Source: Caulobacteraceae bacterium (GTDB lineage: Bacteria; Pseudomonadota; Alphaproteobacteria; Caulobacterales; Caulobacteraceae). From it: a DNA stretch of 64,000 nucleotides. Shown here one piece after another: positions 47,537 through 58,040 of the stretch. The stretch lies in assembly GCA_027489335.1 (NCBI GenBank), contig JAIXZX010000010.1:186001-250000 (forward strand), read 5' to 3'. Each line of letters starts with the position of its first letter. The first letter of the stretch is position 1. The notes under the pieces were generated by a model. It was not told where the DNA came from, ran no database searches, and worked only from the letters and a program-made list of their open reading frames with translations. A program made the translations under genes and the position numbers.

Positions 47537-50359
47537 ATGACCTATCCGTCTCTATCGATCACCACCTCCTCTCGCCGGCTTCGCCGCTACGCCTTGGCGA
47601 CCGCCAGCGCCGCGGCCCTGATGGCCCAGGCCGTCCCGGCCCTGGCTCAGACGGCGTCCAGCGCTGAACTCGAAGAGGTCGTCGTGACCGGCTCGCGCAT
47701 CGTGCGCGACGGCTATGATGCGCCAACGCCCGTCAACGTCCTCGGCTCGGCCGAAATTCTCGCCGAGGCGCCGGCCAATATCGCCGACTTCGTCAACACG
47801 CTGCCATCGGTGGCGGGATCTGTGACCGCCTCGAGCTCTTCAGGCTCCCTCAGCAACGGCCAGGCGGGGATCAGCGCGCTCAATCTGAGGGCGTTGGGGA
47901 CCGGAAGGACCCTGGTGCTGTTCGACGGCCAGCGCTCGGTTGTGTCGGCCGCGACGGGACAGGTGGACACCAACACCTTCCCGCAGTCGCTGATTTCCCG
48001 GGTTGAGGTGGTGACCGGCGGCGCCTCGTCGGCCTATGGCTCCGACGCCGTGGGCGGTGTGGTGAACTTCATCCTCGATAAGGCCTATACCGGCCTGAAG
48101 ATGACCGCCGAGTACGGCGAGACCACCTATGGCGACGGCGAAAACTGGAAGTACAACTTCACCGCCGGATCGCCCTTCGCCGATGGCAAGGGCCACATTC
48201 TCCTCAGCGCCGAGACGGTCAGCCAGGAGGGGATTCACGGCGTCAGTCGGGACTGGAACAAGACCGGCCACTTCGCGATCCGGAACCCGAACACAGCCGC
48301 GGGTCAGCCCTTCTATGTGGTGGCCGACAATGTGGGCATCTCGTCCTACACTCCGGGCGGCCTGATCACCGCAGGTCCCCTGCGGGGCACCTATTTCGGG
48401 GTCAATGGGACGGTCAATCAGCTGGCCTATGGCCAGGTCTCCGGCCAGTGGATGATCGGCGGCGACTGGGAGTACACCTCCAGCCTGAACGGCACCAACT
48501 CCCTGCTGCCCGACGAGGATCGCGACAGCTTCTTCGGTCGCGTCAGCTACGAGGTCGCCCCCAATATCAACGTCTTCGCCCAGGCGTCTTATGCCCGGTA
48601 CGAGGGGCTCAGCTACTACATCCAGCCCACCAGCACCGGCATCACGATCCGGTCGGACAACGCCTATCTGCCGGCGTCGGTCCGCAACCAGATGACGACC
48701 CTGGGCCTGACCTCCTTCGTCATGGGGTCCGGCACCGCTGACTTCCCGTGGTCGGGCAGCAACAACATCCGCGAGACCTCTCGATACGTGGTCGGGGCCG
48801 ACGGCGATTTCAGCCTCTTTGGTCGTGACTTCGGGTGGGACGCTTACTACCAGCACGGCGTGACGAAGACCCGGGAAGAGCTGACCCCGACGTGGAACAA
48901 TACGCGCCTCACGCTCGCCACGGACGCTGTCGTACATCCCACCACGGGTCAGATCGTCTGCCGCTCCACCATCACCGCTCCGACCAACGGATGCGTGCCG
49001 TTGAACCGCTTCGGGGTCGGCGTCGCCAGCCAGGCGGCGATCGACTATGTCCTGGGTCAGCCCCTGCGCACGCAGGAGTTCGTGCAGGACGTGGCGGCGG
49101 TGAACTTCACGACCGACTTCACCGGCTGGGCCGGCCCAATCGACATCGCGTTCGGCGCCGAATGGCGCAATGAAACCCTCGACGGCGAGGTCGACGCCGA
49201 ATCCCAATCCGGCTGGAAGTACGGCAACTACAAGGTCACCACCGGCGAATACGACGTGGTGGAGGGCTATATCGAGACCCTGATCCCGATCATCGAAGGT
49301 CTCGATTTCAACGGCGCGGCCCGTTACACGCGCTATAGCACCTCAGGCGGCGTCACCACCTGGAAGGCTGGTCTGACCTATTCGCCTATCCCGGACATCA
49401 CATTGCGCGCGACGGCGTCGCGGGACATCCGGGCCGCCAATATGAGCGAGCTGTTCGACGCCGGCACGGCCCGAAGCAACGCCGTTTCGATCAACGGGGT
49501 CTCAACCGCCTTCGTCCAGAACCTGCAGGGCAATATCGACGTCCAGCCGGAGGTGGCCGATGGCCTTGGCCTGGGCGTGGTCTTCCAGCCGAGCTTCCTG
49601 CCGGGCTTCGCCGCCTCACTGGACTACTACGAGATCAAGGTCGAAGGGGTGATCGACTTCGTGACCGCCCAGCAAACCGCCGACTTCTGTCTGCTCAACA
49701 ACGTCCAGCGCTACTGTAGCAATCTCCGCTACCAGAATGGGCAGCTCGCCTTCATTGACCTGTTCTACGAAAATCTGAACAGCCTGAGCGCCAAGGGCCT
49801 GGACATCGAAGCGTCCTACCGCACCTCGCTCGACGCCTTCATCCCCAATGCGGCTGGCGATCTGTCCCTGCGGGCCATGGCCACCCACTACATCGAGAAC
49901 GTCACGGACAATGGCGTCACCGCCATCGATCTGGCGGGATCGAATGTGGGCGCCACGCCGGACTGGTCCTACCGGGTCACCGCCGCCTACGACCTTGAGC
50001 CGATCAGCCTGAACTTCACCGTCCGCGGGGTGAGCGACGGGGTCATCAGTAACGCCTACACCGAGTGCACCAGCGCCTGCCCGACCCTGGCGCCGCCCTA
50101 CTACACGATCAACGACAACAACATTGAAGGCGCCATCTACTTCGACGCCTCGGCGACCTACGCCTTCGAGCTCGGCCAGAGCGGGGCCAGCGGCGAGGCC
50201 TATGTCTCCATCAAGAACCTGTTCAACACAGATCCGCCCCTGACCGCCAACCCGGCGGCCCTGGGCGCTGAAAACACCGTCGGCTACCTGCAGACCAACC
50301 GCAGCCTGTATGACGTGCTCGGCCGCACGTTCCGGGTCGGTCTGCGGCTGGCCTTCTAG
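47537..50359 (+). CDS. Large TonB-dependent outer-membrane receptor
   Basis: 940 residues. Signal peptide with a Ser/Arg-rich start (SSRRLRRYALATASAAALMAQAVPALAQ|TA), TonB box EEVVVTGSRI (about 46-55), plug domain with ANIADFVNTLPSVAGSV, LNLRALGTGRTLVLFDGQRSVV and VVTGGASSAYGSDAVGGVVNFILD, and a long barrel that ends RVGLRLAF. The plug/barrel type resembles the receptors often linked to peptide or carbohydrate-derivative uptake. It is downstream of the Lrp regulator and the M20 amidohydrolase, so import of a modified amino acid or peptide is inferred. Confidence 0.92.
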   Translation: MTYPSLSITTSSRRLRRYALATASAAALMAQAVPALAQTASSAELEEVVVTGSRIVRDGYDAPTPVNVLGSAEILAEAPANIADFVNTLPSVAGSVTASSSSGSLSNGQAGISALNLRALGTGRTLVLFDGQRSVVSAATGQVDTNTFPQSLISRVEVVTGGASSAYGSDAVGGVVNFILDKAYTGLKMTAEYGETTYGDGENWKYNFTAGSPFADGKGHILLSAETVSQEGIHGVSRDWNKTGHFAIRNPNTAAGQPFYVVADNVGISSYTPGGLITAGPLRGTYFGVNGTVNQLAYGQVSGQWMIGGDWEYTSSLNGTNSLLPDEDRDSFFGRVSYEVAPNINVFAQASYARYEGLSYYIQPTSTGITIRSDNAYLPASVRNQMTTLGLTSFVMGSGTADFPWSGSNNIRETSRYVVGADGDFSLFGRDFGWDAYYQHGVTKTREELTPTWNNTRLTLATDAVVHPTTGQIVCRSTITAPTNGCVPLNRFGVGVASQAAIDYVLGQPLRTQEFVQDVAAVNFTTDFTGWAGPIDIAFGAEWRNETLDGEVDAESQSGWKYGNYKVTTGEYDVVEGYIETLIPIIEGLDFNGAARYTRYSTSGGVTTWKAGLTYSPIPDITLRATASRDIRAANMSELFDAGTARSNAVSINGVSTAFVQNLQGNIDVQPEVADGLGLGVVFQPSFLPGFAASLDYYEIKVEGVIDFVTAQQTADFCLLNNVQRYCSNLRYQNGQLAFIDLFYENLNSLSAKGLDIEASYRTSLDAFIPNAAGDLSLRAMATHYIENVTDNGVTAIDLAGSNVGATPDWSYRVTAAYDLEPISLNFTVRGVSDGVISNAYTECTSACPTLAPPYYTINDNNIEGAIYFDASATYAFELGQSGASGEAYVSIKNLFNTDPPLTANPAALGAENTVGYLQTNRSLYDVLGRTFRVGLRLAF

Positions 50360-50541: not shown

Positions 50542-51258
50542 ATGACTCACCTGAAACGCTACCTGCCCCTGCTGATCCTGGCGCTCGGGCTGATCCTGGT
50601 CTTCACGAGCGATCTGGGACGGTTCCTGAATCTCCAGGCCCTTCAGACGCACGAGGCCGCCCTGCGCGCCCTGGTGGCGGACAACCTGCCGTTGGCGCTG
50701 CTCGCCTTCATCGGGCTCTATGCTCTTTCAACAGCGCTGAGCGTGCCGGGCGCCGTCATCCTCACCCTGGCCGGCGGCTACCTGTTTGGCATCTGGGTTG
50801 GGGGCGCGGCCACAGTGGTGGGCGCCACAATCGGCGCCATCGCGGTCTTCTACGCCGTGCGCACATCGCTCGGCGCCACCCTCCGCGAGCGGGCGGAAGC
50901 CTCTGACGGTCGGCTGAAGGCGATCATCGACGGGGTCGCCGCCGGCGCCTTCGGCTACATCCTGACTCTCAGGCTCATCCCTCTGGCGCCCTTCTGGCTG
51001 GTCAATGTGGCCGCAGCCCTGGCCCATGCGCCCCTGGCGCCCTACGCGCTGGCCACCTTCATCGGCATCATGCCAGCCACCTTCATCTACAGCGGCATCG
51101 GCGCCGGCATCGGCGACCTGCTGGCCCGTGGCGAGGCGCCGGACCTCGGCGTGATCTTTCAGCCCAACATTCTCGGCCCGCTCGTGGCGCTCGGCCTGCT
51201 GTCGCTCGGGGTGACCCTCTATCAGCGCCGCCGCGCCAAGTCGGGAGCCTCCCTATGA
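50542..51258 (+). CDS. TVP38/TMEM64 (DedA-superfamily) membrane protein
   Basis: 238 residues, about five to six helices (8-25, 48-70, 75-100, 133-155, 160-185, 205-225), with the SNARE-associated/VTT-domain sequence VPGAVILTLAGGYLFGIWVGGAATVVGATIGAIAVFY and LRLIPLAPFWLVNVAAALAHA. Such proteins are membrane lipid scramblases or transporters. It overlaps the MerA-like flavoprotein gene by 4 nt (ATGA), and fusions of these two proteins are known in other bacteria, which supports a joint function. Good SD (GGAGG). Confidence 0.85.
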   Translation: MTHLKRYLPLLILALGLILVFTSDLGRFLNLQALQTHEAALRALVADNLPLALLAFIGLYALSTALSVPGAVILTLAGGYLFGIWVGGAATVVGATIGAIAVFYAVRTSLGATLRERAEASDGRLKAIIDGVAAGAFGYILTLRLIPLAPFWLVNVAAALAHAPLAPYALATFIGIMPATFIYSGIGAGIGDLLARGEAPDLGVIFQPNILGPLVALGLLSLGVTLYQRRRAKSGASL

Positions 51259-52676
51259 GCGGCAAAGTGATCAAGGCGGATCTGGCCGTCATCGGCGCCG
51301 GCTCCGGTGGGCTTTCGGTGGCCGCTGGCGCCGCCCAGCTGGGGCTCAAGGTCGTGCTGTTCGAGAAGGGCGAGATGGGCGGCGACTGCCTCAACTATGG
51401 CTGCGTCCCGTCCAAGGCCCTGATCGCCGCCGCGTCGGCCGCCCACGAGGCTCGACACGCCAAGGGCCTGGGCATCCACGCCGCCGAGGTTGTGGTGGAT
51501 TTCACCCAGGTCATGGCCCATGTGCACGCCGCCATCGCCGCCATCGCGCCTCACGACAGCCAGGACCGGTTCGAAGGCCTAGGCGTCACCGTGGTCCGCG
51601 AGCCCGCCCGCTTCCTGGACGCGCGCACGGTCGGCAGTGAGAGCCTCAGGGTTCGCGCGCGCAAGATCATCATCGCCACCGGCTCCAGCGCGGCGGTCCC
51701 ACCGATCCCTGGCATCGACGCGGTCCCTTACCTCACCAACGAGTCCATCTTCGAGCTGACCGAGGCGCCGGCCCGCCTGATCGTCTTGGGCGGCGGTCCC
51801 ATCGGGGTGGAGCTTGGACAGGCCTTCCGCCGCCTGGGCAGCGAGGTGGTCATCGTCGAGGCCGACAAAATCCTCGGACGAGAAGACCCCGCCGCCGCAG
51901 CCATCGTGATCGAACAGCTCCGCGCCGATGGTGTGGAGCTGATGGCGGGCCGCAAGGCCGTCCGCGTGGAGGCCGGCCCTACCCTGGTGGTTGCGGACGA
52001 GGCCGGTGAGACCCGCATCTCGGGCTCCCATCTGCTGGTGGCGGTGGGGCGCAAGCCGGCCCTGGACGACCTCGACCTGGCGGCGGCCGGGATCGAACGC
52101 AATCGCGATGGCGTCCTCACAGACAAGTCCCTGCGCAGCAGCAACCGCCGCGTCTATGCCGTGGGCGACGCCGCAGGCCGCGGCCAGTTCACCCACTTGG
52201 CCGGCGCCCATGCGGGCCTGGTGGTGCGCCGGGCCATCTTTGGCCTGCCCGTCAACGCCGATACCCTGGCGACGCCCAGGGTGACCTATGCCGATCCCGA
52301 GCTCGCCGCCGTCGGCCTCAGCGAGGCTGACGCCCGCAAGGCGCACGGGGACGACATTCGCGTCGAGGTGTTCGAGTTCGCCGGCAATGACCGGGCCATC
52401 GCCGAGGGCGACACCCGGGGCATGGGAAAGCTGATCACAACGGCCAAGGGCAAGGTTCTGGGCGTCACCCTGGTGGGTCGGCACGCCGGCGACCACATCG
52501 CGCTCTGGGCCCTGGTGCTGTCAGCCGGGCTGAAACTCAGCCAGATCACCGGCATGATCGCCCCCTATCCGACCCGGGGCGAGATCAGCAAACGGCTGGC
52601 GGGACAATGGTACACCCCGGCGCTGTTCTCCCCGCGCACCCGCAAGGTGGTCTCGATCCTCAAGCGTCTGGCCTGA
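51255..52676 (+). CDS. MerA-like pyridine nucleotide-disulfide oxidoreductase
   Basis: 473-residue FAD flavoprotein: dinucleotide-binding GAGSGGLSVAAGAAQLG (about 14-30), redox-active Cys45 and Cys50 in GGDCLNYGCVPSK, second Rossmann motif LGGGPIGVELGQ and FAD-binding YAVGDAAG. The C-terminal dimer-interface base His-x4-Glu of lipoamide dehydrogenase is replaced (IAPYPTRGEISKRL), and no mercuric-reductase CC pair is present at the C terminus. So it is neither a standard Lpd nor a standard MerA; the electron acceptor is unknown. Its end overlaps the convergent FAD oxidoreductase gene by 17 bases. Confidence 0.85.
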   Translation: MSGKVIKADLAVIGAGSGGLSVAAGAAQLGLKVVLFEKGEMGGDCLNYGCVPSKALIAAASAAHEARHAKGLGIHAAEVVVDFTQVMAHVHAAIAAIAPHDSQDRFEGLGVTVVREPARFLDARTVGSESLRVRARKIIIATGSSAAVPPIPGIDAVPYLTNESIFELTEAPARLIVLGGGPIGVELGQAFRRLGSEVVIVEADKILGREDPAAAAIVIEQLRADGVELMAGRKAVRVEAGPTLVVADEAGETRISGSHLLVAVGRKPALDDLDLAAAGIERNRDGVLTDKSLRSSNRRVYAVGDAAGRGQFTHLAGAHAGLVVRRAIFGLPVNADTLATPRVTYADPELAAVGLSEADARKAHGDDIRVEVFEFAGNDRAIAEGDTRGMGKLITTAKGKVLGVTLVGRHAGDHIALWALVLSAGLKLSQITGMIAPYPTRGEISKRLAGQWYTPALFSPRTRKVVSILKRLA

Positions 52677-53769
52677 TCCTTCGGGCCTGGGCGACGAAGC
52701 CGAGGTCCAGGCGACGCTTGAGCCAAAGCGCCGTTCGGCCCCGCCACCACAGCCGGCCGCGAAGCGCGAGCCCGGTCCCGTCGCCGAGATCCATGACCGA
52801 CAGCCAGCGACGCTGAGGTTGGTAGGCGCGCAGCCGCGCGCCCGTTGCCCGAGCGATGAGATTCGCCAGCAGGATCGGGGCGGCGCGAACACCGAAGACC
52901 CCCGCCGGCGGTCTGGCCCCGCCCTCGATCACCGCGCAGTCTCCTGTCGCGAAGACGGCGCTATCGTCCCTGGCATGGAGTTGCGGCGTCACCCGAAGCC
53001 TGCCCGCGGCGTCGGTCGCAAGGCCCAGGCCCGCGATCAAGGGCGGCGCGACCAGCCCGCCGGCCAGGACCAGAATCTCGCAGGCCAGGCTGCGCCCGTC
53101 GGCGAGGCGGCACAGCCCCGGCTCACTGGCCGTCACCTCGCCCTCGATCACACAGACGCCTCGCGCGCCCAGATGACGTGTCAGACCGCTCAGCGCTGGG
53201 GAGGGCGCCCAGCCCGGCGGCCCGCGGCTGACCACCGTGATATCGGCATGTTGTCCATGGCGGGCGCAGAGGCCGGCCAGGGCGGCGGCGATCTCGAACC
53301 CGGTCTGACCGCCGCCGGCCACCACAATGGCCGGCGCCCGGCCCTTGGCGATCAGCACAGCCTCAAGGCGGGCTTTCAGGTCGAACAGCCGCGAAAGGGG
53401 TTTAACCGGCCAGACGTCCGGCATCCCGGCAAGGCCGCCAGGGTCACTCACCCTGGAGCCAACATTGAACGAGATGACATCGAACCCGCGGTCACCACCC
53501 CCTCCCAGCGCCAGGGTTCGCCTGTGCAGATCGACGCTCTCGACCAGGGTCGGCAGGTGGAGAACCCCATGGCTGGCGGCGAGGGCGGCGACATCGATCC
53601 GGGCGGCGGCCTCTGGGAAGGCGCCCGACAGGACCCCGGTCGCCAGCCCCGAATAGTGAAACTCTGGAGGCGCAATGAGCGTCACCTCCAGGCCGGCCGC
53701 CTGCAGGCGCTCCGCCCGGGCCAGAAGGTGCAGGTGGGCGTGGCCGGCGCCCACCAGGACCAGTCTCAC
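52660..53769 (-). CDS. FAD-dependent oxidoreductase (NDH-2/SelD-N-terminal-like family)
   Basis: 369 residues from a GTG. N-terminal FAD motif LVGAGHAHLHLLARAERL resembles the NDH-2-like flavoproteins that occur alone or fused to SelD. Second nucleotide motif IVVAGGGQTGFEIAAAL (about 152-168) and a late FAD-contact GDCAVIEGG (about 286-294). The C terminus ends in a short basic segment. No selD domain. It is transcribed with the DUF1499 gene (20 bp gap). A quinone or another redox partner is inferred; nothing identifies the acceptor. Confidence 0.75.
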   Translation of the reverse strand: MRLVLVGAGHAHLHLLARAERLQAAGLEVTLIAPPEFHYSGLATGVLSGAFPEAAARIDVAALAASHGVLHLPTLVESVDLHRRTLALGGGGDRGFDVISFNVGSRVSDPGGLAGMPDVWPVKPLSRLFDLKARLEAVLIAKGRAPAIVVAGGGQTGFEIAAALAGLCARHGQHADITVVSRGPPGWAPSPALSGLTRHLGARGVCVIEGEVTASEPGLCRLADGRSLACEILVLAGGLVAPPLIAGLGLATDAAGRLRVTPQLHARDDSAVFATGDCAVIEGGARPPAGVFGVRAAPILLANLIARATGARLRAYQPQRRWLSVMDLGDGTGLALRGRLWWRGRTALWLKRRLDLGFVAQARRIRPDA

Positions 53770-53789
53770 AGGCTTGAAGCCCGCCGCGC

Positions 53790-54593
53790 TCAGTCGCTGA
53801 GGCGGGCCGACAGGGCCGTCATATAGGCTTCGATCCGCGCCGCGTTGGCCCCCAGGTCGGAGAGGCCGACCCGAGACGTCGAGCGCATGTCGATGGCCGC
53901 GCCGGCGTCGGCGGGCCGAACCCGGATGGCCACGTCATCCTTGAATCCGAACCAGAAGGTCTCGGCCGTGGCCTCGATCAGCCCGGTGGCGGCGTCAGCG
54001 GAGACGATCGTCCAGCCCTGCGCCCGGGCCTCGGCCTCGGCGGCGGCGAAGGCGTCGGCCGGAGCCGTCGCTGTCACCAGGGTCTCAAGTTCGGGATAGG
54101 CCTCCTGCCCGACCTGCCCCAGGCTCTTGCCGGCCAGCGGCGCGAACCGTGGTCCCTGATAGGCCGGAAGGCTGGTGAGCTGTGCGGAGAATTCCGCCAC
54201 AGGGTTGGCGTCTTCCGCGGTCCGCACGGCCATCAAGGCCTCGGAATAGAGGGGCGGATCGGCCACATTGGTGGTCACATCGTGGATCGGGGGGATGTCG
54301 GCCGACTGCCCGCGCACATAGGCGAGGTAGCCAAACCCAAGGGCCGGGATCAACAGGGCGACCAGGGCCGCGCGCCACCCCGTACGGGGGGACCGGACCA
54401 GGGTGGCCACCAGGGCGACCAGCGCGATGACCAGGGCGCCGATCAGGAGGCGCGGCCCCCATTGGATGATGAGCACGCCGAGACCCAGCCGCCACGACCA
54501 GAGATCAAACTTGACCCCGAGCGCGGCGACCATGAACCAGACTGGCAACAGCAGGGACAGAACAAGCGCAATACGGGCGATCAGCAGCCGCAT
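53790..54593 (-). CDS. DUF1499 membrane protein
   Basis: 267 residues: N-terminal hydrophobic part with three helices (about 5-27, 38-60, 74-92), followed by a soluble DUF1499 domain (about 100-265) with the recognisable ALMAVRTAEDANPVA and GWTIVSADAATGLIEATAETFWFGFKDDVAIRV, and RSTSRVGLSDLGANAARI. Function unknown for the family. SD GAGGAAGG is 8 nt before the ATG. It is divergent from the radical SAM gene across 162 bp, so it may share a control region with it. Confidence 0.82.
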   Translation of the reverse strand: MRLLIARIALVLSLLLPVWFMVAALGVKFDLWSWRLGLGVLIIQWGPRLLIGALVIALVALVATLVRSPRTGWRAALVALLIPALGFGYLAYVRGQSADIPPIHDVTTNVADPPLYSEALMAVRTAEDANPVAEFSAQLTSLPAYQGPRFAPLAGKSLGQVGQEAYPELETLVTATAPADAFAAAEAEARAQGWTIVSADAATGLIEATAETFWFGFKDDVAIRVRPADAGAAIDMRSTSRVGLSDLGANAARIEAYMTALSARLSD

Positions 54594-54755
54594 GGGGTGA
54601 GCCTTCCTCAGAAATCAGCAAGCGTGACCGTTTCACGATCCTGGGCGTCAGGATAGAGGGCCAGGCTTGAAACCAATCGGCGCCGGTGGCCGAATAGGCC
54701 TAGGGACGCCCTGTCGCCGCCACAGCAGCCCGCCTGCTCATCACGCAAGGACCAG

Positions 54756-55724
54756 ATGACCCAGACGGCCCTGTCTCCCTTCGCCACCCATCGCGCCACG
54801 GCCAGCGCCCGACGGTTTGTGGACCCCCGCGTCACCGCCGACGGATCACCCCGCGCCCATGTGGGTCTCAGGGCCCTCGAGACGCTGTGGTTCAACACGG
54901 GCAGCCTCTGCAACATCGCCTGCCTGAACTGCTATATCGAAAGCTCGCCCACCAACGACGCCCTGGTCTATCTGACCGCCGGCGACGTGGCGGCCTATCT
55001 GGCCGAGATCGAGCGGCTCGCCCTGCCCACCCGCGAGATCGGATTCACCGGTGGCGAGCCCTTCATGAACCCCGACATTCTGGTCATGCTCGATCAGGCC
55101 CTGGCCAGCGGCCGTCAGGTGCTGGTCCTGACCAACGCCATGCGTCCGATGATGCGATGGGGCGAGCGCCTGGCCGCGCTCATCGCCAGGGCCGGGCCGC
55201 AGCTCACCTTCCGGGTCAGCCTCGACCATCATAGCCAGACGGCGCATGACGCCGAGCGCGGCGCCGGCGCCTGGGGCAAGGCCTGGGCGGGTCTGGCCTG
55301 GTTGAACGAGCAGCGGGCGAGGATCGCGATCGCCGGGCGACGCATCGCCGACGAGACCGAGGACGACGCCAGGGCGGCGTTCGCCACGCTCTTCGGCGCG
55401 AGAGGCCTGAAGGTGAACGCCGCCCACCCCGGAGAGCTCGTGCTCTTCCCTGAGATGGAGCCCGAGGCCGAGGTTCCAGAAATTACCGAGGCCTGCTGGG
55501 GAATCCTCAACCGGTCGCCCGACGAAATGATGTGCGCCACCAGCCGCATGGTTGTCCGCCGGCGTGGCGCGCCTGGCCCAGTGGTCGTCGCCTGCACCCT
55601 GACGCCCTACGATCCGCAGTTCGAGCTTTCGACGACCCTCGCCGGCGCGGCTGCTCCGGTCAGCCTGAACCACCCCTTCTGCGCGCAGTTCTGTGTCCTG
55701 GGCGGCGCCAGCTGCAGCGCATGA
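54756..55724 (+). CDS. Radical SAM enzyme with extra C-terminal cysteines
   Basis: 322 residues. The SAM cluster is Cys52, Cys56 and Cys59 in LCNIACLNCYIESSP; GFTGGEP (96-102) binds SAM. Six more cysteines lie downstream: Cys247, Cys260, Cys280, Cys309, Cys313 and Cys320, with CAQFC near the end, so one or two auxiliary Fe-S clusters (SPASM/twitch-like) are likely. It is not the typical ArsS radical SAM enzyme: motif and C-terminal half differ. The 4-nt overlap with the next glycosyltransferase gene implies a common pathway. Substrate unknown. Confidence 0.82.
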   Translation: MTQTALSPFATHRATASARRFVDPRVTADGSPRAHVGLRALETLWFNTGSLCNIACLNCYIESSPTNDALVYLTAGDVAAYLAEIERLALPTREIGFTGGEPFMNPDILVMLDQALASGRQVLVLTNAMRPMMRWGERLAALIARAGPQLTFRVSLDHHSQTAHDAERGAGAWGKAWAGLAWLNEQRARIAIAGRRIADETEDDARAAFATLFGARGLKVNAAHPGELVLFPEMEPEAEVPEITEACWGILNRSPDEMMCATSRMVVRRRGAPGPVVVACTLTPYDPQFELSTTLAGAAAPVSLNHPFCAQFCVLGGASCSA

Positions 55725-56404
55725 GCCAAGCCAGGTCCGCCCTGGCGGTGATCATTCCGACCTTGAACGCCGAGGTGGGGCTCGCGACAACCCTGACCGC
55801 CCTGCCGCCCGTCGCCCAGCGGATCGTTGTCGATGGCGGTTCAACCGACCGCACGGTCGAGGTCGCGCTAGCCGGAGGAGCCGAGGTTGTGCAAAGCCCG
55901 CCCGGACGCGGCGTTCAACTGGCCGCCGGGGCGGTGGCGGCGAAGGCGCCGTGGCTTCTGTTCCTCCATGCCGACACCCGGCTAGACCCCAGGGCCTGGG
56001 CCGCCCTGGAGGCGCACCTGTCAAATCCCGGCGGCGCGCAGATCGCCGCCGTCTTCGGCTTTCGGCTGGACGATCGAGCCTGGCAGGCCCGGCTGCTTGA
56101 ATGGGGCGTCCGGCTTCGGGTCGCGCTTCTGGCCCTGCCATATGGCGACCAGGGGCTGTTGATCCACCGCGACCTCTATCAGGCGATCGGCGGCTACAGC
56201 GCCTTGCCACTGATGGAAGACATCGATCTGGTCCGCAGGCTGGGACGCCGGCGACTGCGCCTGCTGCAGGGCCAGGCCCTCACCTCGGCCGCCCGCTGGC
56301 GCAAGCGCGGCTGGGCGCGGCAGAGCCTGCTCAATCTGCGATGCCTCGCCCTCTATCTGACCGGGACGCCGCCAGCCAGGATCGCCCAGATCTATGGCCG
56401 CTGA
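55721..56404 (+). CDS. TIGR04283-type family-2 glycosyltransferase
   Basis: 227 residues of the GT-A fold: N-terminal AVIIPTLNAEVGLATTLTAL, nucleotide-sugar DGGSTD (about 39-44), DXD-type HADTRLD (about 89-95), and GGYSALPLMEDIDLVRRL with acceptor/base Glu-Asp. RRLRLLQGQALTSAARWRKRGWARQSLLN is the diagnostic C-terminal part. Its family is called an arsenosugar-biosynthesis glycosyltransferase because it often neighbours arsenosugar genes. It overlaps the radical SAM gene by 4 nt and the next gene by 11 nt. A longer upstream frame to 55532 lies in the radical SAM gene. Confidence 0.87.
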   Translation: MSQARSALAVIIPTLNAEVGLATTLTALPPVAQRIVVDGGSTDRTVEVALAGGAEVVQSPPGRGVQLAAGAVAAKAPWLLFLHADTRLDPRAWAALEAHLSNPGGAQIAAVFGFRLDDRAWQARLLEWGVRLRVALLALPYGDQGLLIHRDLYQAIGGYSALPLMEDIDLVRRLGRRRLRLLQGQALTSAARWRKRGWARQSLLNLRCLALYLTGTPPARIAQIYGR

Positions 56405-56996
56405 CCGGACCCGTCGACATCTGGTCATCTTCGCTCGCCAGCCCCGGTTTGGGGTCGGCAAGCGTCGGCTGGCCGCCGATGTGGGCGACCTCGCCGCCCT
56501 GAGGTTTGGCCGCTACGCCCTGGAGCGGCTATGGCGGGAGCTGGGCTCAGATCCCCGTTGGACCCTGTGGGTCGCCACCTCGCCCGATCGTCCGACCCGC
56601 TGGGTCCGCCGAGGTCGTCCCTTGCCTCAGGGTCCAGGAGATCTTGGGGCGAAGCTTCGGCGGGTGACACAAGCCCTGCCCCCTGGCCCTGTCGTGATCA
56701 TCGGCGCCGACACGCCCGGTGTGACGCGCACGGACGTCGCCCGCGCCTTCGCCGCCCTTGGCCCGAGGGCGGCGGTCCTTGGGCCAGCCGCCGACGGCGG
56801 CTACTGGCTGATCGGGCTGCGTCGACGCCCGCGGGAGCCCCGGCCCTTCGATGGTGTTCGGTGGTCCAGCGACCAGACCCTCCAGGACACGATCCATGCC
56901 CTGGGCGAAACGCCCTACGCCCTGCTTCAGGTGCGCGAGGACGTGGATGATGGCGCAACCCTGCGGCGGGCGCTCACCCCACGGCGGCTGCGCTGA
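56394..56996 (+). CDS. TIGR04282-type glycosyltransferase-like protein (DUF2064)
   Basis: 200 residues with a nucleotidyl-sugar transferase-like N terminus (LVIFARQPRFGVGKRRLAADVGDLAAL), GPGDLGAKLRR, VIIGADTPGVTRTDVARAFAAL (acidic metal motif GADTPG) and AAVLGPAADGGYWLIGL, the DUF2064 core. Partner of the preceding TIGR04283-type enzyme in almost all species. The 3' end overlaps the convergent MTA phosphorylase gene by 23 bases. Confidence 0.85.
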   Translation: MAADRTRRHLVIFARQPRFGVGKRRLAADVGDLAALRFGRYALERLWRELGSDPRWTLWVATSPDRPTRWVRRGRPLPQGPGDLGAKLRRVTQALPPGPVVIIGADTPGVTRTDVARAFAALGPRAAVLGPAADGGYWLIGLRRRPREPRPFDGVRWSSDQTLQDTIHALGETPYALLQVREDVDDGATLRRALTPRRLR

Positions 56997-57855
56997 ACTT
57001 GCGTGGGCAAATCCCCGCCAGCTTGGCGGCCAGCGCAGGATCCCACAGGCCAGGATCAGTGATTACCGCATAGTCCAGCCCCGTATCGATGGGGGATGGT
57101 TCACGGATCTCCGGCAGGCTTCGGGCCAGGGCGGCGATCATCTGTCGGGCGGTATCGGCGTTGCTTTGCAGCACCTCCAGGACGTTCGACACCTCCACAT
57201 GGGCGGTGGCCTCGCGCCAGCAGTCATAGTCGGTGACCATGCAGACATTGGCGTAGGGCAGCTCCGCCTCGCGGGCCAGGCGCGCCTCGGGCATGGCGGT
57301 CATGCCGATCACCGAACAGCCCCAGGAGCGGTAGAGATGGCTCTCAGCCTTGGTGGAGAACTGCGGTCCCTCCATGGCGAGATAGGTTCCCCCTTCGACG
57401 GTGGGAGCGCCCGCCGCGCGGGCGGCGGCGGCGGCGGCGGCGGACAGGCGCGGACAGACCGGCTCAGCCATGGAGACGTGGGCGACGAGACCCTCCCCGA
57501 AGAAGGACGCCGGGCGTGACACCGTGCGATCAATGTACTGGTCCACCAGGACGAACGTCCCAGGCGGCAACTCCTCTCGCAGCGATCCTACCGCCGAAAC
57601 CGACAGGATGTCGGTGCAGCCGGCCCGCTTGAGCACATCGATATTGGCGCGGGCGTTCAGGGCGCCAGGGGGAATGCGGTGGCCGCGACCGTGCCGGGGA
57701 AGAAAGACCAGACGCACATCATCCAGCTCGCCGGTGACCAGCTCATCGGAAGGCGCGCCCCAGGGCGATGCGATTGAAAGGGTCTGGCGATTGCGCAGGC
57801 CGTCAAGGTCGTACAGTCCAGAACCGCCGATGACGCCAATGGTCCACTGCTTCAT
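56974..57855 (-). CDS. mtnP: S-methyl-5'-thioadenosine phosphorylase
   Basis: Cleaves MTA (and related 5'-modified adenosines) to adenine and the sugar 1-phosphate. 293 residues: GVIGGSGLYD near the N terminus, PRHGRGHRIPP (54-64), MEGPQFSTKAESHLYRSWG (about 161-179), and TDYDCW (208-213), whose acidic residues mark 6-aminopurine specificity as opposed to 6-oxopurine PNP. ATG 57855 is preceded by a GTG at 57858. No mtnA/mtnK or methionine-salvage genes surround it; the overlap with the TIGR04282 gene is notable. Confidence 0.92.
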   Translation of the reverse strand: MKQWTIGVIGGSGLYDLDGLRNRQTLSIASPWGAPSDELVTGELDDVRLVFLPRHGRGHRIPPGALNARANIDVLKRAGCTDILSVSAVGSLREELPPGTFVLVDQYIDRTVSRPASFFGEGLVAHVSMAEPVCPRLSAAAAAAARAAGAPTVEGGTYLAMEGPQFSTKAESHLYRSWGCSVIGMTAMPEARLAREAELPYANVCMVTDYDCWREATAHVEVSNVLEVLQSNADTARQMIAALARSLPEIREPSPIDTGLDYAVITDPGLWDPALAAKLAGICPRKFSAAAVG

Positions 57856-58040
57856 CACGCTCGCGCCTTCCTGGTTGCCGCTCCCTTCGGCCTAGCCAAG
57901 ACGCCGCGGGTTGTCGACGACCGAGCCGGACTGCGCGGGGCAATCGAAGACGATCCTCCGGAATTTTCGGAACGCTCTGCGCCCAAGCTTGTTCTCAATA
58001 CTCAAGCCTGAGTTCTGACAGCAGGAGGGGTGTGTCCCGC

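Follow-up and report, generated by a model that had tools for sequence, protein, structure and literature searches.

A probable arsenosugar-type biosynthesis cluster of a Caulobacteraceae bacterium with a radical SAM family in the place of ArsS

Arsenosugars are a major form of biological arsenic in marine environments, and the identity of the bacteria that produce them is unsettled. The key step has a curated enzyme family, ArsS, which places a 5'-deoxyadenosyl group on a dimethylarsenical. The hopanoid enzymes HpnH and HpnG follow a similar order, radical SAM adenosylation and then cleavage by a nucleoside phosphorylase, and the usual substrate of S-methyl-5'-thioadenosine phosphorylase (MTAP) is likewise a 5'-substituted deoxyadenosine. 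Here we describe a locus in a stretch of 64,000 nucleotides from a Caulobacteraceae bacterium (assembly GCA_027489335.1, contig JAIXZX010000010.1, positions 186,001 to 250,000), referred to below as the window, in which a radical SAM enzyme (RSAM) is accompanied by MTAP and by genes of the two glycosyltransferase (GT) families of arsenosugar clusters.

We propose, at a probability of about 0.7, that these genes form a cluster for arsenosugar-type biosynthesis, with an RSAM family lying outside all NCBIfam models in the place of ArsS. This reading is based on the company of the genes, their co-occurrence across genomes, the observation that RSAM and ArsS never occurred together in our sample, the linkage of RSAM to arsM-like genes, and an ArsM homologue encoded in the same genome. 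The protein families suggest a gene logic of adenosylation, phosphorolysis, and sugar activation and transfer. The cluster comprises the following genes.

50542-51258, plus strand: VTT/TVP38/TMEM64 membrane protein, 238 residues (PF09335, 76.2 bits)
51255-52676, plus strand: MerA-like pyridine-nucleotide disulphide oxidoreductase, 473 residues (MerA model TIGR02053, 344.5 bits, cut-off 454.45)
52660-53769, minus strand: flavin adenine dinucleotide (FAD) oxidoreductase of the SelD-N-terminal type (best model TIGR03169, 204.9 bits, under the cut-off of 310)
53790-54593, minus strand: DUF1499 protein (Pfam search)
54756-55724, plus strand: RSAM, 322 residues (CxxxCxxC and six invariant extra cysteines)
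55721-56404, plus strand: TIGR04283 GT, 227 residues from the ATG at 55721 (214.6 bits, cut-off 182)
56394-56996, plus strand: TIGR04282/DUF2064 CofC-like nucleotidyl- or glycosyl-transferase, 200 residues (TIGR04282, 126.2 bits, just below 134)
56974-57858, minus strand: MTAP (TIGR01694, 293.9 bits, above 274.85), with a likelier start at the in-frame ATG at 57855

An earlier note on this DNA had described most of this arrangement, and its description holds: the VTT and MerA-like genes overlap by 4 bases, the FAD oxidoreductase and DUF1499 genes lie together, the RSAM stop and the TIGR04283 start overlap as ATGA (55721-55724), and the two GT genes overlap by 11 bases. MTAP was also rightly recognized; it is, however, convergent to the GT genes and lies outside the operon. 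Since MTAP is convergent and the FAD oxidoreductase and DUF1499 genes run away from RSAM, the locus is a two-strand cluster and not a single operon. The DUF2064 Pfam score of the TIGR04282-type gene (93.2 bits) exceeded the cut-off of 25.8, and the closest solved chain to its product was 3cgx, a putative nucleotide-diphospho-sugar transferase. The MerA-like translation has a CxxxxC redox pair (GGDCLNYGC) and no Cys-Cys pair at its C-terminus, the latter being a criterion for mercuric reductase; mercury reduction was rejected on this ground and on the sub-threshold MerA score. The gene order of the window was seen again in two genomes (G001 and G017) and in loci L036, L037, L038, and L043, which indicates that the cluster is not a chance arrangement. 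In L037 (Phenylobacterium sp.), RSAM is 94% identical to that of the window, which suggests that the window belongs to a genome near Phenylobacterium.

RSAM did not score within any NCBIfam family. The best match, to the Rv1681 family (NF049973, 86.5 bits for a cut-off of 380), covered residues 35 to 218 only, and the score with the ArsS model TIGR04167 was 55.8 bits for a cut-off of 300, in agreement with the earlier statement that the enzyme is not ArsS. Five RSAMs from other genomes likewise fitted no NCBIfam model (ArsS scores of 43.9 to 63.8 bits). The radical SAM motif CxxxCxxC is formed by C52, C56, and C59. The six additional cysteines that had been noticed in the window sequence (C247, C260, C280, C309, C313, and C320) were invariant in an alignment of 45 sequences, consisting of the window protein and 44 relatives of 56 to 88% identity, and were also kept in three members of 32 to 36% identity. 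Comparison of an RSAM profile with a profile of 19 ArsS proteins by hhalign gave a probability of 98.5% over the core (residues 40 to 222). The C-terminal cysteines follow a similar order in both families, MC..C..C..C..C, according to visual inspection and a joint alignment; the C-terminal reads of the distant RSAMs are RCYSCFKFGASC (G160), RCYSCFAHGASC (G066), and RCFSCYRFGASC (G129), and the ArsS counterpart is HCYGCTAGQGSSC. An AlphaFold2 model of RSAM was confident (mean pLDDT of 87.7). Searches of solved structures with the RSAM and ArsS profiles returned remote radical SAM enzymes only. Judged from the core match and the similar cysteine order, RSAM is distantly related and resembles ArsS in its layout; its scores below the cut-offs place it outside the ArsS family.

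A further radical SAM type, 36 to 37% identical to the RSAM core (73 to 75 bits), was observed in two genomes of one genus (G275:C1:5940952-5945492 and G258:C162:111328-115830), with a DUF2064 gene about 4 kb away; TIGR04283 was not found in these genomes at the threshold used. These weaker hits (75 bits in G275, 73 bits in G258, others lower) were not counted as RSAM.

Several of the window's cluster genes are also found around ArsS in other bacteria. We read 20 hand-picked regions, most of them chosen because ArsS or RSAM and the GT genes lie near each other, with genes called as open-frame choices ranked by conservation; the gene counts for the nine ArsS loci therefore describe a non-random sample. 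Below, GT82 denotes the DUF2064 gene and GT83 the TIGR04283 gene. In ArsS locus L233, the genes GT82, GT83, MerA, VTT, ArsS, and MTAP follow each other in a row, and this is the set of the window with ArsS in the place of RSAM. Locus L238 contains ArsM, DUF3047, GT82, GT83, MerA (713 residues), and ArsS, with a divergent MTAP. MerA-like genes were present in six of the nine ArsS loci, and MTAP and ArsM in two each. A relative of the FAD oxidoreductase occurs in ArsS locus L243. The arsenosugar-like company proposed from the window alone is thus found elsewhere, around ArsS itself.

Loci containing RSAM provided the reciprocal observation. Locus L247 has the order GT82, GT83, ArsM, RSAM, and a VTT/MerA fusion, the two proteins being also fused in L246, and locus L248 has the order MTAP-like gene, RSAM, ArsM, and GT82. 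An arsM-like gene was located at most 3.4 kb from RSAM in ten fetched loci (L247, L248, L048, L068, L070, L097, L111, L136, L142, and L282) and directly beside it in five of them (L097, L136, L142, L247, and L248). Loci L048, L068, L070, L097, and L111 belong to the 80 named loci, the 80 best among 570 confirmed RSAM loci, and thus account for 5/80. A survey for co-occurring arsM had been suggested as a check; its outcome is that RSAM adjoins arsM-like genes in other genomes. Among the same 80 loci, genes found near RSAM were TIGR04283-like (22/80), DUF2064-like (21/80), MerA-like (12/80), VTT (10/80), MTAP (10/80), DUF1499 (9/80), and the FAD enzyme (6/80).

Additional proteins recur in both types of loci. 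Two proteins, c11 and c25 (about 490 and 320 residues), for which the thresholds used gave neither a Pfam nor an NCBIfam match, were observed near ArsS (L236, L243) and near RSAM (L246, L107), following ArsS in L243 and RSAM in L246. A DUF3047 protein recurs in ArsS clusters, with a PF11249 match in L239 and assignment of the other three by similarity to L239.

c11/c25 regions: L236:6977-8443, L243:8194-10649, L246:10017-12382, L107:3852-4805
DUF3047 genes: L235:6506-7156, L238:5678-6418, L239:6253-6996, L243:12780-13487

The association of RSAM with the GT pair was quantified in 60 relatives of the window's genome, including that genome, and in a sample of 299 genomes from the phylum. The threshold for calling RSAM present was 335 bits for the relatives and 130 bits for the phylum sample, in which ArsS was scored at E≤1e-25. 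RSAM was present in 20 of the 60 relatives. TIGR04283 (at least 145 bits) and DUF2064 (at least 73 bits) were found in the same 23 relatives, comprising all 20 RSAM-positive genomes and 3 of the 40 RSAM-negative ones (Fisher 4e-13, not corrected for kinship). The three are G018, G056, and G057; G018, which belongs to the genus of the window, gave a weak match (27.8 bits) to the ArsS profile, limited to its last 22 positions and lying at a contig end immediately upstream of the GT gene. In the phylum sample, RSAM was detected in 22 genomes, ArsS in 114, and both in none. The phylum searches scored only part of the first-look candidates in many genomes, many genomes are incomplete, and family f30 makes up a large share of the ArsS-positive set. 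TIGR04283 (E≤1e-35) was present in 21/22 and DUF2064 (E≤1e-12) in 22/22 of the RSAM-positive phylum genomes. Both GT genes were found in 132 genomes, 21 with RSAM, 97 with ArsS, and 14 drawn from the 163 genomes with neither radical SAM enzyme. In the window's own genome (G000, 94.88% complete), no ArsS was detected at E≤1e-25, and the sole match at E≤0.001 was RSAM itself.

The earlier note held that scattering of RSAM without the GT genes would contradict a common pathway. RSAM was indeed mostly apart from the GT genes, with TIGR04283 within 10 kb on the same contig in 8 of 38 RSAM-positive genomes, a result that seemingly refutes the idea; yet the same 38 genomes contained TIGR04283 in 37 cases and DUF2064 in all. 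In 7/38, no two of the three genes were near one another, and counts of genes lying apart include genes on different contigs. Co-occurrence without linkage is a stronger sign of common function than a cluster alone. The separation of RSAM, the GT pair, and MTAP in many genomes is what would be expected if the genes of the window were chance neighbors with no common pathway. This explanation is highly improbable in view of the 20/20 versus 3/40 co-occurrence and of the repeated assembly of the cluster in distant lineages, and a plain chance neighborhood was therefore rejected.

Where the GT pair is unlinked to RSAM, its neighbors (uracil-DNA glycosylase, CcrM, RNase HII, a PA0069-type radical SAM protein, and a FixC-like oxidoreductase) appeared housekeeping-like and were rejected as pathway members. 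A radical SAM gene, c6, whose L124 member is of the PA0069 type, was observed near the GT pair amid CcrM and RNase HII in 10 sister-family loci (L120-L126, L128, L129, and L133).

A tree of 72 TIGR04283 rows was built to compare GT genes partnered by RSAM with those partnered by ArsS. The near-copies L035-L037 were excluded, some genomes are represented twice through overlapping loci, 11 of 30 loci of one phylum-search set were included since the start pattern missed the rest, and two rows (L096_R and L240_N) are overlong owing to bad trimming of frames. RSAM- and ArsS-partnered rows interleave. The row of RSAM genome G160 groups with the G354 row, whose partner is ArsS (support 100/100), and a starred set of 21 rows contains four from three RSAM-positive f47 genomes, 11 from ArsS genomes, and six from genomes with neither. 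The RSAM label requires nine changes on the tree, at least six of them forced by starred branches, and the ArsS label five, at least four of them forced. These results indicate that the two radical SAM families have had GT enzymes of the same lineages as partners.

The arsM gene, reported as missing from this stretch, is indeed absent from it; the genome nevertheless carries an ArsM homologue on another contig (C2). This protein has the seven cysteine columns common to 17/17 aligned ArsM proteins (itself included), one of them in the motif SNCVINL. With the NF008823 model at 100 bits or more, ArsM was found in 9/60 relatives, all RSAM-positive, and in 0/40 RSAM-negative genomes (Fisher 1e-5); the next-best scores, 81 bits in G018 and 77 bits in G008, were from RSAM-negative genomes. 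In the phylum sample, ArsM (E≤1e-28) was detected in 11/22 genomes with RSAM, 81/114 with ArsS, and 9/163 with neither. All eight ArsM-bearing genomes of the window's class in that search were RSAM-positive.

Several observations weigh against the arsenosugar-type reading, and the main weakness is the missing ArsM in half of the RSAM-positive genomes: ArsM was detected in only 11/22 of those in the phylum sample and 9/20 of those among the relatives. G001 and G017, which have the gene order of the window, gave no ArsM match with NF008823. The ArsM homologue of the window's own genome lies away from the cluster, beside malate synthase G (L263), reached 160 bits where the subfamily model demands 263, and lacks one cysteine present in 14/17 aligned ArsM proteins. 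Genomes with RSAM and without ArsM may import methylated arsenic, carry another type of ArsM, or use another substrate. The NF008823 model does miss some ArsM types, since the control Synechococcus elongatus, above the cut-offs for ArsS, TIGR04283, and DUF2064, gave no match at the threshold used. If RSAM adenosylated another element, a thiol, or a lipid, with MTAP and the GT enzymes leading to a sugar-linked product, arsenic would be the substrate of the ArsS version only. Such a substrate would account for the RSAM-positive genomes in which ArsM is not detectable and for an RSAM that is not ArsS by score, and the order of adenosylation and phosphorolysis is also that of HpnH and HpnG. We regard it as unlikely because RSAM lies directly beside arsM-like genes in the five loci named above, ArsM at 100 bits or more was found among the 60 relatives only alongside RSAM, and the GT lineages are common to ArsS and RSAM genomes. 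Hopanoid side-chain synthesis itself was rejected, the HpnH and HpnG scores being 24.8 bits (cut-off 225.05) and 28.1 bits (cut-off 187.1). The doubt about the substrate that the earlier note had expressed is narrowed towards methylated arsenic and partly stays.

The other contrary observations concern RSAM and its linkage. RSAM scored higher with the Rv1681 model than with the ArsS model, both far under cut-off, Foldseek searches of the PDB with the RSAM model retrieved general radical SAM enzymes only, with SPASM types first (SkfB, SuiB, and anSME, TM about 0.5), and hhalign did not align the C-termini of RSAM and ArsS. The unaligned C-terminus, the additional invariant C247, and the 0/299 genomes with both enzymes, which could define a separate branch, would also fit an RSAM that acts on arsenic and forms, in place of the 5'-deoxyadenosyl-arsenic bond, another bond or a later intermediate, giving a different organoarsenical as end product. 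This variant appears quite improbable, since the GT pair, MerA/VTT, and sometimes MTAP are those of ArsS clusters and point to the same downstream chemistry. The mutual exclusion of RSAM and ArsS is partly phylogenetic, most RSAM-positive genomes belonging to the window's class and the listed ArsS-positive genomes lying outside it. The GT pair is not bound to these two enzymes alone, as 14/132 GT-pair genomes have neither; three of these (G075, G109, and G303) are rated complete, and a further partner enzyme may exist (G075:C1, G109:C1, and G303:C1). Linkage is sparse: besides the 8/38 genomes with TIGR04283 within 10 kb, RSAM was near MTAP in 10/80 and near the GT genes in about 22/80 named loci, and MTAP was present in only 2/9 of the ArsS loci read. 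Finally, a sugar-phosphate-cluster gene without a GT gene is beside RSAM in 35/80 named loci (L047, L049, L050, L052, and others); we take this divergent gene, from its sequence, to encode glucose-6-phosphate dehydrogenase. It is followed by 6-phosphogluconolactonase- and phosphoglucose-isomerase-like genes, in loci mostly titled Rhodobacteraceae or its genera.

The role of MTAP was considered separately. Within the genus, MTAP orthologues were found only in the cluster-bearing genomes G000, G001, and G017, in the latter two beside the cluster. Presence of MTAP in the same place without the cluster had been named as an observation that would count against a pathway; of the 33 genus members that lack the cluster, 23 supplied 26 phosphorylase loci, and no orthologue was detected in any of these, positive controls having worked. 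In the ten others, phosphorylase hits were weak, partial, or absent. The loci compared do not include the short partial matches of G006 and G034. MTAP could instead be an ordinary enzyme of methionine salvage or 5'-deoxyadenosine clearance placed there for convenience, a role that is compatible with an arsenosugar-type cluster and changes a single step. Its score is that of a plain MTAP, its sequence retains the motif TDYDCW (TDFDCW in 4glf), full-length MTAPs occur in sister-family genomes lacking RSAM (G041 and G042, loci L277 and L279), and it is the sole MTAP-like hit of its genome, the other PF01048 hit lying in a 485-codon frame that presumably encodes AMP nucleosidase. Its restriction within the genus to cluster-bearing genomes, its occurrence within or next to two ArsS clusters (L233 and L238), and the MTAP-like gene of RSAM cluster L248 speak against a role in salvage. 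We consider a pathway role slightly more likely than not and regard salvage as a serious possibility, somewhat short of even.

Under the arsenosugar-type reading, ArsM encoded elsewhere in the genome would methylate arsenite to a dimethylarsenical, as its family suggests, and the MerA-like flavoenzyme and VTT, recurrent companions of ArsS and RSAM, might maintain the arsenical in its reduced form or take care of its transport. RSAM would then cleave S-adenosylmethionine by means of the cluster bound to CxxxCxxC and place a 5'-deoxyadenosyl group on the dimethylarsenical, as suggested by the motif and by the exchange of genes with ArsS; an auxiliary cluster bound by its extra cysteines may assist. 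MTAP would strip adenine to yield 5-arsenyl-5-deoxyribose-1-phosphate. The DUF2064/CofC-like protein may activate the sugar, and this protein or the TIGR04283 GT, or both, may transfer it to an acceptor such as glycerol. The earlier proposal of a 5'-deoxyribosyl- or sugar-linked product, made here by the logic of arsenosugar synthesis, is supported by the co-occurrence data, locus L233, and the arsM-like neighbors, the product itself being a prediction. With moderate confidence, we consider that RSAM represents a second, separate enzyme family for formation of the adenosyl-arsenic bond.

If so, arsenosugar synthesis would be common in Alphaproteobacteria that the ArsS model does not flag, including Caulobacterales, Sphingomonadales, and Reyranella, with marine Rhodobacteraceae (for example Ruegeria and Sulfitobacter) as further possible cases, and ArsS as a marker would miss many of them. 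RSAM is present in Ruegeria and Sulfitobacter; the GT genes were not within 10 kb of it in the named genomes and were not sought elsewhere in them. The locus would also supply candidates for the steps after ArsS, namely MTAP for removal of adenine and the DUF2064 and TIGR04283 enzymes for sugar transfer; the VTT and MerA-like proteins, which recur as partners, are candidate pathway members as well. Upstream of VTT, at 47537-50359 of the window, is a gene that we take from its sequence to encode a TonB-dependent receptor. The receptor gene was also observed in G001, G017, and L037, and was not seen in L036 or L038; it is a possible uptake partner within the genus.

Compared with the known systems, the locus resembles the hopanoid HpnH/HpnG pair in its proposed logic, although its proteins score far below both cut-offs. 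The Rv1681 family is the best NCBIfam match of the RSAM core, far under the cut-off. RSAM and ArsS share the CxxxCxxC core, and the order of their C-terminal cysteines is similar, in a region that hhalign did not align. They differ in overall sequence (26% identity, 66 of 257 aligned residues, window versus L204), in the spacing of one cysteine pair, which is CxxxC in the window RSAM where ArsS has CxxC, and in the extra invariant C247 of RSAM. Of the GT families of arsenosugar clusters, TIGR04283 is matched in the window above its cut-off (214.6/182) and TIGR04282 just under it (126.2/134). The window differs from ArsS clusters in having RSAM for ArsS, ArsM outside the cluster, and the FAD oxidoreductase and DUF1499 genes in addition, and shares with them both GT families, the MerA-like, VTT, and MTAP genes, and an ArsM homologue in the genome, here one that scores under the subfamily cut-off. 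Its gene set is that of L233 except for the radical SAM enzyme.

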